DNA of 64,000 nucleotides from Bermanella marisrubri. Lineage in GTDB: Bacteria; Pseudomonadota; Gammaproteobacteria; Pseudomonadales; Oceanobacteraceae. The position numbers were made by a program, and so were the translations under genes. Of the stretch, positions 3,941 to 59,496 are shown piece by piece (position 1 is the first letter of the stretch; the number at the start of each line of letters is the position of its first letter). The DNA lies in the NCBI RefSeq assembly GCF_012295615.1, contig NZ_CP051183.1, forward strand, positions 1,391,001-1,455,000, written 5' to 3'. The notes beneath the pieces are model-generated. The model was not told the DNA's origin. It saw nothing but the letters and a program-made list of their open reading frames with translations, and made no database searches.

Positions 3941-6547
3941 ATGGGTGACTTAAGTAAAGAAATCCTGCCCGTAAATATTGAAGACGAGCTGAAACAATCC
4001 TACATGGATTACGCCATGAGCGTAATCGTGGGTCGTGCGTTACCAGACGTTCGTGACGGGTTAAAACCTGTTCACCGTCGTGTACTTCACGCCATGAACA
4101 TTCTGAATAACGACTGGAATAAACCTTACAAAAAATCGGCCCGTGTGGTGGGTGATGTAATCGGTAAATACCACCCACACGGCGATAGCGCGGTTTATGA
4201 CACAATCGTTCGAATGGCCCAGCCATTTGCGATGCGTTACACATTGGTTGACGGTCAAGGCAACTTTGGCTCCATTGACGGTGATAGCGCTGCGGCAATG
4301 CGTTATACCGAAGTGCGTATGGCAAAAATCGCACATGAGATGCTGGCGGATATCGATAAAGAAACCGTTAATTTTGTCGACAACTACGACGGTACTGAAC
4401 AAATCCCTGAAGTATTGCCGACACGAATCCCATCACTATTGGTGAATGGCTCTAGTGGTATTGCAGTGGGTATGGCAACAAATATCCCACCTCATAACTT
4501 AACTGAGGTGATCACTGGTTGTTTAGCATTGATTGAAAATCCAGAAATCGATGTTGATGGTCTGATGCAATACATCACAGGCCCTGATTTCCCAACAGCA
4601 GCCCTCATTAACGGTCGCGACGGTATTGTTGATGCCTATCGCACAGGCCGTGGTCGTATTCAAATGCGTGCCCGTCATCATTTTGAGATGGATGATAAGA
4701 ACGGTAAAGAATCGATTATCTTTACTGAGATCCCGTACCAGGTGAACAAAGCTCGTTTGATTGAAAAAATCGCTGAGCTAGTAAAAGACAAAAAAATCGA
4801 AGGGATTACTGAGCTTCGCGATGAGTCCGATAAAGATGGTATGCGCATCGTTGTTGAATTGCGCCGTGGTGAAGTGCCTGAAGTAGTACTGAATAATCTA
4901 TTTGCACAAACTCAGCTGCAAACCGTATTCGGTATTAATACGGTGGCTCTAGTAGATGGTCAGCCGAAGATTCTAAACCTGAAGGATATGTTGGAAGCCT
5001 TCGTACGTCACCGCCGTGAAGTGGTGACACGCCGTACGATTTATGATCTGCGAAAAGCCCGCGAGCGCGGTCATATTTTAGAAGGTCTAGCAGTGGCGCT
5101 GGCGAATATCGATCCTGTCATCGCAACCATTAAAGCGTCTCCAACAGCGGCCGAAGCTAAAGACAAGCTAATCAGTACGGCTTGGCAACCAGGTGATGTC
5201 ATGGAAATGCTGGAGCGTGCAGGTCCTGATGCGTGTCGTCCTGATGATTTAGATCCGCAATTTGGCTTCCGTGATGGTAATTACTATCTTTCACCTGCTC
5301 AGGCTCAAGCCATTTTGGATATGCGTCTTCAGAAGTTGACCGGCCTAGAGCACGACAAGCTTATCGACGAATACAAAGTCAAAGTAGATGAAATAGCAGA
5401 ATACTTGCAGATTCTTGCTAGTCACGAGCGCTTGATGGAAGTGATTCGTGAGGAATTAGAAAGCATTAAAGATGAGTACGGCGATGGACGTCTGACAGAA
5501 ATTGTTGAAACGCGCCGTCATTTAACGATGGAAGATTTAATTGCTGAAGAAGATATGGTGGTGACGCTGTCTCATGGTGGTTACGCCAAGATTCAGCCAG
5601 TAACTGATTACCAAGCTCAGCGCCGAGGCGGTCGTGGAAAGTCTGCTTCTGCTATTAAAGATGAAGACTTTATCGAGCATTTATTAGTAGCGAATACCCA
5701 CGATACCATCCTCTGCTTTAGTAATGCTGGTAAAGTTTATTGGTTAAAGGTTTACGATATTCCAGTGGCCAGTCGTCAAAGTCGCGGTCGTCCAATCGTT
5801 AATCTATTGCCGCTTGAGCAAGATGAATGGATCACAACGATTCTGCCTGTTCGGGAGTACACAGAAGGCCACTACATCTTTATGGCGACCAGCAAGGGCA
5901 CAGTGAAGAAAACTGACCTTACAGCGTTTTCTCGTCCACGCTCTAGCGGTTTGATTGCTTTAGAGTTGGAAGAAGGTGACACCTTGATGGGTGCTGAAAT
6001 TACCGACGGCAACCAAGATGTATTGCTCATGAGCGACGTGGGTAAAGCGGTTCGTTTTGCTGAAAGTAATGTTCGTGCCATGGGGCGCACCGCACGCGGT
6101 GTTCGTGGTATCAAGATGCAAGACGATCAAAAAGTCGTTTCACTAATGATTCCAAAAGAAGGTGCCACCGTACTGACCGCTAGTGAGCATGGTTATGGTA
6201 AGCGTACCGACGTAGACGAATTCCCAACCAAAGGCCGCGGTACACAGGGTGTTATCGGTATGGTCACTAACGACCGCAATGGTAAGTTGGTGGGTGCTGT
6301 GCAAGTGTTTGATGGCAATGAAATTATGCTGATCACAAACCAAGGTACTCTAGTTCGTACTCGCGTGAGTGAGGTGTCTACTCTTGGTCGAAATACTCAA
6401 GGTGTCACCCTAATTCGTGTTCAAGAAGGCGAGCGTTTAGTGGGTATTGCGCCGATTATGGATGAAGACGAAGATATGGATTCGGTTGTGAATGAGCAAA
6501 CTCTACCTGCGGAAGATGACTCCGAAGAAGCCAGCGGTGAGGAATAA
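3941..6547 (+). CDS. gyrA: DNA gyrase subunit A
   Basis: 868-aa ATP-dependent type II topoisomerase subunit that cuts and rejoins DNA. Catalytic Tyr122 is in AMRYTE. The quinolone-resistance region [10 protein letters not shown] carries Ser83 and Asp87 at E. coli numbering, the drug-sensitive residues. The GyrA box QRRGGRG opens the C-terminal beta-pinwheel domain. The C-terminal tail is strongly acidic. An AAGGGA Shine-Dalgarno sequence precedes the ATG. wzz begins 3 bases after its stop, so the two are probably cotranscribed. A 200-bp divergent intergenic region lies upstream; I could not identify a convincing sigma-70 promoter there. Confidence 0.99.
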
Positions 6548-8856: not shown

Positions 8857-9386
8857 GTCATTCTCCGGCGTCGCGAAGCGACATGGACCGGAGAATCTAT
8901 TTAATTTGTATTGAGTTTGGAATGTTAAGTGTTGATTTTTACATGTCATTCCCGATTCGATAGGTAGTCCATTGGACGAAATGAAATAAATTGGATGGAT
9001 TCTCAGTCAAGCTGAGAATGACGAATACAACCTGTCGTTCCCGACTTGATCGGGAATCCATTGAGCGGTATGAAATAAATTGGATGGATTCTCAGTCAAG
9101 CTGAGAATGACGAATACAACCTGTCGTTCCCGACTTGATCGGGAATCCATTGAGCGGTATGAAATAAATTGGATGGATTCTCAGTCAAGCTGAGAATGAC
9201 GAATACAACCTGTCGTTCCCGACTTGATCGGGAATCCATTGAGCGGTATGAAATAAATTGGATGGATTCTCAGTCAAGCTGGGAATGACGAATACAACCT
9301 GTCGTTCCCGACTTGATCGGGAATCCATTGAGCGGTATGAAATAAACTAGATGGATTCTTAGTCAAGCTGAGAATGACGATAAACT
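8857..9386 (+). repeat. Repeat array in the serC-pheA gap, including an 89-bp tandem repeat
   Basis: One type B palindrome lies at 8857-8898. An array follows in which the unit CTGTCGTTCCCGACTTGATC... begins at 9032, 9121, 9210 and 9299: exact 89-bp periods, nearly identical copies, preceded by a more divergent copy from about 8945. Each unit is an inverted pair: a type C palindrome (ATTCCC/GGGAAT arms with a GACTTGATC centre), a spacer containing GAGCGGTATGAAATAAA, then a type D palindrome (ATTCTCAG/CTGAGAAT arms). Left and right flanks carry T/G-rich and A/C-rich heptamers. No gene lies in the gap 8801-9441. Confidence 0.95.
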
Positions 9387-58178: not shown

Positions 58179-58193
58179 TCTTGAGTTTCATAC

Positions 58194-58402
58194 GTCATTC
58201 CCGACTCGGTCGAGAATACTCTACTAGTCATACCGGACTTGATCTGGTATCCATTGAACGGGCTTGAAGTCAATTGGATGGATCCTCCGGTCTAAGTCGC
58301 TTCGCGACGCCGGAGGATGACGGTGTTACTTTGTCCGAGTATGATTTTTGGTCATTCCCGCGGATGATTCTTCCTCGTCATTCCCGCGAAGGCGGGAATC
58401 CA
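58194..58402 (+). repeat. Repeat cluster left of the GIY-YIG gene
   Basis: Decayed type C-like elements (58194-58253), spacer CTTGAAGTCAATTGGA, a type B element with GGATCCTCCGG arms (58279-58322), spacer GGTGTTACTTTGTCCGAG, a broken type A (58351-58362) and an intact type A (58377-58402). Positions 58277-58362 are repeated exactly at 58819-58904. The remainder of the 58179-58529 gap (58403-58496) shows no recognisable feature. Confidence 0.9.
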
Positions 58403-58496
58403 TTTAGCGGTATGAAATCATTTAGCACCGGGCATGTGAAAAACTTCAACTCTCAAAAAAATAAGAAATCTAGCTGATTCCAGTTTTTGCTCAGTT

Positions 58497-58519
58497 CTCG
58501 AAAAATTGAAGTTTTCGAG
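58497..58519 (+). promoter_or_regulatory. Hairpin overlapping the GIY-YIG ribosome-binding site
   Basis: CTCGAAAA (58497-58504) and TTTTCGAG (58512-58519) are perfect complements with a 7-base loop. The right arm includes the first bases of the GAGGAG Shine-Dalgarno sequence (58517-58522), so the hairpin could limit translation. Confidence 0.55.
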
Positions 58520-58529
58520 GAGTGATGAA

Positions 58530-58820
58530 ATGAATAAAACACCTTGTGTGTACATCATGACTAATTATCGAAAAGGCACCATCTATGTTGGAGTTACATC
58601 GGATTTAAAAAAGCGAGTGTGGCAACATAAGAACAATGCAGTTGATTCCTTTACCGCGCGGTATGGATTAAAAACGTTAGTCTATTACGAAGTTACTGAA
58701 AATATGGAAAGTGCTATTCAACGAGAAAAGAGGTTAAAGCATTGGAATCGTTCTTGGAAGTTGAATCTAATCGATAGCTTTAATCCTAGTTGGCGTGATC
58801 TGTATATTGATTTATTTTGA
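58530..58820 (+). CDS. Single-domain GIY-YIG endonuclease
   Basis: 96-aa nuclease-fold protein. CVYIM (6-10) and TIYVGVT (17-23) are the GIY and YIG strands; Arg29 in LKKRVWQHK and the metal-binding Glu66 in QREKRLKHWNR complete the active site. All catalytic positions look intact. It is related to the small UPF0213/YhbQ-like group, which has no defined cellular role. GAGGAG lies 7 bases before the ATG. The gene is enclosed by the palindromic repeat array, and its TGA stop runs into an exact 86-bp copy of sequence found upstream. Confidence 0.88.
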   Translation: MNKTPCVYIMTNYRKGTIYVGVTSDLKKRVWQHKNNAVDSFTARYGLKTLVYYEVTENMESAIQREKRLKHWNRSWKLNLIDSFNPSWRDLYIDLF

Positions 58821-59478
58821 TGGATCCTCCGGTCTAAGTCGCTTCGCGACGCCGGAGGATGACGGTGTTACTTTGTCCGAGTATGATTTTTGGTCATTCC
58901 CGCGAAGGCGGGAATCCATTTTGTAGTCTGAAATCAATCGTATGGATCCTCTGGTCTCTGTCGCTTCGCGACGCCGCAGGATGACGGTGTTACTTTGTCC
59001 GCGGATGATTTTGGTCATTCCCGCGAAGGTGGGAATCCATTTTGCAGTTTGAAATCAATCGTATGGATCCTCCGGTCTATGTCGCTTCGCGACGCCGTAG
59101 GAAGACGGCGTTGTCTTTTCCGCGGATGATTCTTCCTCGTCATTCCCGCGAAGGCGGGAATCCATTTTGCAGTTTGAAATCAATCGTATGGATCCTCTGG
59201 TCTCTGTCGCCTCGCGACGCCGCAGGATGACGGTGTTACTTTGTCCGCGGATGATTTTGGTCATTCCCGCGAAGGTGGGAATCCACCTTCTTATTTTTTT
59301 AATGTTGGCTTTTGTGTTGTTAGTTGTGGATCCTCCGGTCTATGTTGCGTCGCGACGCCGTAGGAAGACGGCGTTGTCTTTTCCGCGGATGATTCTTCCT
59401 CGTCATTCCCGCGAAGGCGGGAATCCATTTTGCAGTTTGAAATCAATCGGATGGATTCTCAGTCAAGCTGAGAATGAC
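58821..59478 (+). repeat. Composite repeat array right of the GIY-YIG gene
   Basis: Five composite units start at 58821, 58943, 59064, 59189 and 59327. Each has a type B element with GGATCC at its edge, a spacer (GTTACTTTGTCCGCGGATG-like), a type A element, and a GCAGTTTGAAATCAATCG spacer. Units 2 and 4 share one set of variants and units 3 and 5 another. A type D element closes the array (59452-59478). It fills the gap before putA; there is no gene. Confidence 0.95.
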
Positions 59479-59496
59479 AATGTCCACAACTCACAA

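Follow-up and report, generated by a model that had tools for sequence, protein, structure and literature searches.

A clade of small GIY-YIG nucleases as candidate partners of CGTC-tagged REP palindromes

Introduction

Why does a gene for a very small nuclease lie inside an array of palindromic repeats, and do the gene and the repeats belong together? The locus that raises this question is on the chromosome of Bermanella marisrubri (NZ_CP051183.1) and was examined within a window, by which we mean the whole 64,000-nucleotide stretch analysed (positions 1,391,001 to 1,455,000 of the forward strand); coordinates are those of the window unless stated otherwise. The initial annotation had described a 96-aa GIY-YIG nuclease gene between perfect direct repeats and had suspected that the nuclease and the repeats form a pair. 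The palindromes concerned resemble the CGTC REPs, which include dRS3 of Neisseria and RPE-4 and RPE-6 of Rickettsia and are described, in the part of Di Nocera et al. (2013, PMC3733652) consulted, as apparently lacking a dedicated transposase. Among the matches listed in our literature searches, judged by titles, the first part of abstracts and term counts, none linked GIY-YIG proteins to CGTC REPs.

Results

The nuclease gene lies between two units of a six-unit array

Direct sequence comparison confirmed that 58277-58362 and 58819-58904 form a perfect repeat of exactly 86 bp, with no leftward extension, and that 456 bp separate the two copies. The nuclease gene is on the plus strand at 58530..58820 (ATG 58530, TGA 58818-58820), so the right copy, which begins at 58819, starts inside the stop codon, as the initial annotation had claimed. 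The good ribosome-binding site that it had reported is the GAGGAG located 7 nt 5' of the ATG.

These repeats are parts of a larger array of six dimers, each with a larger palindrome on the minus strand (REP1) and a second palindrome on the plus strand (REP2), with units starting at about 58278, 58820, 58938, 59063, 59184 and 59326. The left 86-bp copy consists of REP1, the spacer and the start of a REP2 in unit 1, and the right copy consists of the same parts of unit 2. The flanking of the gene by the 86-bp repeats is therefore real, but the pair is not unique to the gene, and we rejected the copies as special terminal repeats or transposon ends because both are parts of two of the six array units.

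In unit 1, REP1 (58278..58322, minus strand) is a CGTC-tagged palindrome with an inner hairpin and REP2 (58376..58403, plus strand, CGTCATTCCCGCGAAGGCGGGAATCCAT) lies 126 nt upstream of the ATG; compared with shuffled sequence, both form more stable folds as DNA (z -3.2 and -3.9, respectively). In unit 2, REP1 (58820..58864, minus strand) begins in the stop codon of the nuclease gene and REP2 (58892..58919, plus strand) carries a GGTC tag. Unit 3 (58938..59040, a degenerate REP1-/REP2+ dimer), unit 4 (59063..59165), unit 5 (59184..59286) and unit 6 (59326..59428) were recognised by alignment, their degenerate REP1 having been missed by the palindrome finder. The REP2 of units 2, 3 and 5 is tagged GGTC; otherwise REP1 and REP2 have an unpaired CGTC tag at one end.

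The REP2 of unit 1 has the 8-9 bp stem starting with AT, the 4-5 nt loop and the CCA tail, all present exactly. REP1 has the stem and CCA tail of CGTC REPs, but a 19-nt loop enclosing the inner hairpin. The agreement of REP2 with CGTC-1, as set out in the part of PMC3733652 consulted, extends to the CGTC tag, the stem ATTCCCGC, the 4-nt loop, the CCA tail and the arrangement in head-to-head dimers. Because the gene sits between the REP2 of unit 1 and the REP1 of unit 2, the CGTC tags that flank it point outwards. The gene segment between these two palindromes (58404..58819, plus strand) has a G+C content of 35% compared with 43% for the window. The pattern ATTCCC-N8-GGGAAT, with at most one mismatch, matched at 14 places in the window, whereas shuffled sequences gave 0.14 matches on average.

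The gene and array are specific to this lineage within the genus

The whole segment runs from a START-domain gene to putA (58179..59496), with a diverged CGTC palindrome at its left edge (58193..58221, plus strand) and a TGTC-tagged palindrome of another stem type at its right edge (59451..59479, minus strand). The START-domain gene and putA adjoin in six genomes of the same genus (L135-L138, L140 and L141), where 81-138 bases lie between the aligned ends, and their distance in the window's genome is about 1.3 kb. In this comparison of empty and occupied sites, which the initial annotation had proposed, none of the six sister genomes in which both flanking genes could be reached had a strict palindrome or a GIY-YIG match at the START-putA site. 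The stretch examined in a seventh (L139) yielded no putA, and an eighth (G006, 72% complete) had no match to the START-domain gene. Within the genus, the segment with the gene and the array is thus confined to this lineage.

Just one other close homologue was found in the genus, in G007 (56% identity); it lies at a different site, and the palindromes that flank it have another type of stem, ATACCCGC. A second empty-site comparison was attempted there, and the neighbouring gene was matched in only three of nine genus genomes. Counted by the general pattern, palindromes numbered 18 in the window's own genome, 8 in G007 and 2 in G005; the remaining six genomes of the genus, including two that are only 72-75% complete, had none. 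G009, from the same family as the window's genome, had nine palindromes and lacked the gene, with no gene match in a profile search either.

Palindromes are also regionally clustered in this genome. The chromosomal region 1390.6-1474.4 kb contained 50 of them, while 20 control stretches (400 kb) contained six, all in one stretch. Over much of its length, however, the window was without a counterpart in the compared 160 kb of G005, and there is a second repeat region without the gene. The clustering may thus be that of a variable region, and it was not taken as evidence for local hopping from the gene. The second region, at 357000-507500 of the same chromosome, has many CGTC palindromes with several types of stem, and the clade's GIY-YIG gene was not found in it.

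Within the window, at least four types of CGTC palindrome with different stems share intergenic stretches between 2267 and 59479, and two of the types adjoin the nuclease gene. Five CGTC palindromes of the ATTCTCAGC type form a tandem array on the minus strand at 8995-9380, without a nuclease gene; they start at 8995, 9084, 9173, 9262 and 9351, an exact spacing of 89 bp, and two of them have one changed base.

The protein is a conserved GIY-YIG nuclease

The annotated intact GIY-YIG nuclease was borne out by a match to Pfam PF01541 (E = 5.3e-16, 59.1 bits, cut-off 22.6) and by 17 invariant positions in a 52-member family alignment, including Y8, Y19, G21, R29, H33, E66 and N85. The AlphaFold2 model of the 96-aa protein had a mean pLDDT of 93 and a pTM of 0.85. 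Its top PDB matches were UPF0213 BH0048 (1zg2), Slx1 and UvrC, all weak (best E 1.8e-3, none below 0.001); to the extent that these matches go, the protein shares the GIY-YIG fold with UPF0213/YhbQ and Slx1. By sequence, BH0048 was the sole UPF0213 chain among seven PDB sequences matched, also weakly (E = 0.005). The score for the group I intron GIY-YIG endonuclease model TIGR01453 was 25.9 bits, under the curated cut-off of 56.05. According to the titles of PDB entries Slx1 acts on branched DNA, which by analogy makes a hairpin or cruciform a plausible substrate of the 96-aa protein.

We examined dN/dS in 28 pairs of genes, of which two were identical and two gave no value; the ratio was below 0.3 in 21 of the 24 pairs with a value. 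The highest ratio, 1.16, came from a pair of copies in one genome (G129) that differ by few changes, and one G129 copy lacks W88, a tryptophan otherwise invariant. Two gene matches among the 274 genomes of the class described below contained an internal stop. Judged from dN/dS, the clade's gene shows purifying selection and hence, by all appearance, a conserved function.

Palindromes adjoin the gene in most loci examined

A contig scan gave at least 567 relatives, of which the best 80 were kept for flank analysis. A strict CGTC/TGTC palindrome lay within 200 bp of the gene in 68 of these 80 loci and on both sides in 46. Control ORFs in the same loci had a palindrome on either side in 65 of 815 cases and on both sides in 4 of 815. 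Palindrome density was 8.1/kb within 100 bp of the gene, 2.0/kb at 100-200 bp, 0.64/kb at 200-500 bp and 0.04-0.14/kb beyond.

The window, 30 loci from a genome search and the best 80 contig-scan loci were combined into a set of 111 loci, which is drawn from best matches rather than at random and holds at most 109 distinct genes because L026/L060 and L028/L079 carry identical genes. Two further loci, L161 and L216, were left out of the analysis. Strict palindromes were found within 250 bp of the gene in 93 of the 111 loci and on both sides in 70, so that homologues do not lie mostly outside the repeats; had they done so, this would have spoken against the pairing. The tags of the 70 two-sided loci pointed outwards in 49, inwards in 10 and the same way in 11. 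Palindromes were upstream of the gene in 81 loci and downstream in 82, and in 52 of those 82 the downstream palindrome was at most 10 nt from the stop codon or overlapped it. Inspection by eye of the 18 loci without a strict match showed GTC-tagged palindromes with another first stem pair in 12, a variant tag in L037 and L112, other palindromes in L080 and L111, and none in L039 and L121.

The left and right stems within a locus were identical in 42 of the 70 two-sided loci, with a mean difference of 0.60 compared with 1.47 after shuffling (p = 2e-4). Protein distance was correlated with stem distance (Mantel r = 0.32, p = 2e-4, n = 93), which would fit a shared specificity or simply common descent of the unit.

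Palindromes were present at 26 of 31 loci of close homologues, 107 in total compared with 2.6 in shuffled sequences; the 31 include the window, and one match counted among the 26 (L045, AT-rich with a long loop) seems fortuitous. Distant GIY-YIG homologues in relatives (27-39% identity) had palindromes at 3 of 22 loci, 3 in total compared with 1.3 in shuffled sequences. The link to the palindromes is therefore specific to this protein clade, with little or no excess in distant relatives.

The hosts named in the record titles belong to the Pseudomonadota, Nitrospinae, Elusimicrobia, Bipolaricaulota, Planctomycetes, Chloroflexota, Parcubacteria and others, although single phylum labels may be wrong because many of the records are metagenome bins. 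On a Planktothrix plasmid, a clade-type gene at 4986-5270 has an MmeI-like restriction gene on one side and the DISARM gene drmA on the other, and no strict CGTC palindrome was found there. Two records listed as plasmids in PLSDB, NZ_CP119140.1 (N. gonorrhoeae, 2.2 Mb) and NZ_AP026896.1 (A. caviae, 4.9 Mb), are probably chromosomes, to judge from their size. Carriage by phages was set aside after a search of 50,697 phage records gave no match at E 1e-10.

The unpaired tag and tail are conserved

A second search, which made no use of the tag, looked for GC-rich hairpins with a perfect stem of at least 8 and a loop of 3-6. It found hairpins near the gene in 98 of the 111 loci, at a density of 4.4/kb compared with 0.26/kb at 1-3.2 kb from the gene. 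GTC stood on exactly one side in 188 of the 204 near-gene hairpins, within CGTC in 161 of the 188, and the opposite side read CCA in 168 of the 188. Distant hairpins were also tagged in 33 of 74 cases, as would be the case if these regions contained further REPs. The CGTC tag is thus no artefact of the search pattern. Unpaired bases kept on both sides of a variable stem are what a recognition site would show.

Gene and palindromes co-occur across the class

The initial annotation had also tied its suspicion to a correlation between repeat number and presence of the gene, and we looked at both in 274 genomes of the class (222 genera, own genome included). The gene was found at E <= 1e-12 in 60 genomes and at least one palindrome in 101, while the reversed control pattern had none among the matches listed; the palindrome pattern used for this count misses some stem and loop types. 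Palindromes were present in 46 of the 60 genomes with the gene compared with 55 of the 214 without it (Fisher p = 1.6e-12, kinship ignored). At least 10 palindromes were present in 27 of 60 and 14 of 214 genomes, respectively, and the mean number per genome was 21.5 with the gene and 3.3 without. The correlation thus held over the 274 genomes, but it is not strict: the 55 genomes have a palindrome without the gene, and 14 of the 60 gene-bearing genomes had no match to the palindrome pattern.

The 24 gene-less genomes with at least five palindromes, plus G009, were searched by profile, and 11 of the 25 gave a GIY-YIG match at E <= 0.001. Partial matches in G261, G294 and G160 (the last at a contig edge) were read as pieces of the clade's gene. 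Palindromes can therefore outlive the gene or lack it.

Copies of the unit are dispersed in some genomes

Five genomes of the class with at least three gene matches were examined for signs of movement, and the ends of the unit could be read in two of them, G129 and G061. Three of the five copies in G129 have 88-96% DNA identity over the blocks found and lie in different surroundings. Their similarity stops just beyond the palindromes, and one copy has a different stretch between the left palindrome and the gene. G061 has three units of about 345 bp (L154-L156), about 99% identical, with a truncated gene, palindrome-like ends and unrelated flanks, like a miniature element moved in trans. The copies in G251, G282 and G075 were rejected as evidence of movement, being too diverged or entangled with other repeats.

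A shorter match to the Sinorhizobium meliloti Ak57 locus was common to three strains, of which one, Sinorhizobium sp. K101, was read. As we read the sequence, Ak57 has a gene-truncated unit followed by a full unit, and most of this sequence is missing from the matching intergenic region of K101. The left remnant in K101 is the outer half of one palindrome beside the outer half of another, and both ends of the segment that differs between the long Ak57 and the short K101 allele fall within REPs. The short allele could be either a target or the product of a deletion.

Discussion

The location of the homologues and the co-occurrence in genomes both supported the pairing of nuclease and repeats that had been suspected at this locus. 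In our reading the gene is probably the dedicated nuclease partner of CGTC REPs, and the gene with its flanking palindromes a compact inherited and mobile unit. Such a unit would most often consist of a palindrome, a gene of about 300 bp and an inverted palindrome, with the CGTC tags outwards. The GIY-YIG protein would recognise the palindrome as a single-stranded hairpin with an unpaired CGTC tag and a CCA tail and would nick at the tag or close to it. The unit, or gene-less derivatives of it, would then be copied or lost as the host repairs the nick or replicates across it, and the spread would be driven by this nuclease rather than by other enzymes. GIY-YIG enzymes cut DNA, and we know of none that joins strands, so the movement step would need host enzymes. 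The recurrence of the pairing in very different bacteria suggests that enzyme and repeats are one spreading unit. More tentatively, and at somewhat less than an even chance, such units may form a class of minimal mobile unit of about 350-450 bp, a GIY-YIG gene between two CGTC palindromes, which occurs in many phyla and seeds gene-less CGTC REPs. Against the partnership stand the genomes with palindromes and no gene and the gene-bearing genomes without a pattern match, as well as the second repeat-rich region (357-507 kb) of this genome, which lacks the gene. Partial gene pieces were present in only 3 of the 24 gene-less genomes with at least five palindromes, and unit ends could be read in only two of five multi-copy genomes, with some copies broken.

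A homing-type variant of this explanation, in which the free-standing nuclease cuts REPs as its target sites and the gene is copied into the cut REPs by repair between the REP arms, is possible but the less likely form. The Ak57/K101 difference, beginning and ending inside REPs, argues for it, as do genes inside arrays, both here and in N. gonorrhoeae. However, insertion would not protect the site from further cutting, since palindromes persist on either side of the gene at occupied sites (70 of 111 loci), and the K101 allele may have arisen by deletion.

The gene could instead be a resident modulator of DNA uptake or recombination, an Ssn-type single-strand nuclease that tunes transformation at targets marked by the repeats, without any spreading of its own. 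Ssn is said to have been described in Nature Communications in 2025 as a widespread GIY-YIG family that cuts single-stranded DNA site-specifically; the repeat reportedly occurs in hundreds of copies in Neisseria, transformation is reportedly affected, and many homologues are said to have been found. A gonococcal homologue with 53% identity, possibly ssn itself, lies inside a large dRS3/CGTC-1 array. This location fits the reported properties of Ssn, as do the small size of the protein, its conserved catalytic residues and its putative cognate repeat. The role in transformation that Ssn reportedly has in Neisseria and the conserved function indicated by dN/dS would both suit a modulator. The patchy presence of the gene (60 of 274 genomes), the copies ending at palindromes and the gene-truncated copies look rather like a spreading element, and the hosts are of many kinds. 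We consider a purely resident role rather unlikely, although mobility would be compatible with a modulator. If Ssn is this clade, the pairing is already known, and the present contribution lies in the signs that the unit moves; the identity of the repeats with CGTC REPs may also go beyond what is reported for Ssn.

It is improbable that the gene is a passenger, landing in REP-rich intergenic regions as tolerant sites while RAYTs or other enzymes move the REPs. REPs are known insertion targets for IS elements, as noted in the part of PMC3733652 consulted, the REPs of this genome are clustered also away from the gene, and many genomes have palindromes without it. On the other hand, REPs flanked control ORFs on both sides in only 4 of 815 cases, distant GIY-YIG relatives had little or no excess, and the left and right stems match within loci. 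RAYTs as movers were rejected for this genome, in which no Y1 transposase (Y1_Tnp) match was found by a search that was positive in 5 of 14 control genomes. That the palindromes serve the gene as ordinary terminators of transcription or as RNA hairpins, as the closeness of many downstream palindromes to the stop codon might suggest, is hardly credible, given that upstream palindromes are as common as downstream ones, that the CGTC tag and CCA tail are kept though unpaired, and that palindromes also occur elsewhere in the genome, away from the gene.

The arrangement resembles the REP/RAYT system (TnpA-REP, 'REPtrons') in that a nuclease gene is embedded between its palindromes and gene-less copies are dispersed. 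However, the protein is GIY-YIG instead of Y1/HUH, the tag is CGTC instead of GTAG, and the genome lacks a Y1_Tnp match. Unlike CGTC-1 as reported in the part of PMC3733652 consulted, the REPs in most of the loci examined here are adjoined by a GIY-YIG gene of one clade.

If a class of such units of about 350-450 bp exists, it would supply the dedicated enzyme that the CGTC REP super-family has seemed to lack, and nuclease-REP pairs would have evolved independently a second time, beside the RAYTs. The clade, found between CGTC REPs in most loci examined, gives a testable partner for REPs described as apparently having no transposase of their own. Should the pair move as a unit, it would constitute a gene-bearing mobile element of very small size and would account for a widespread short repeat of the Proteobacteria.
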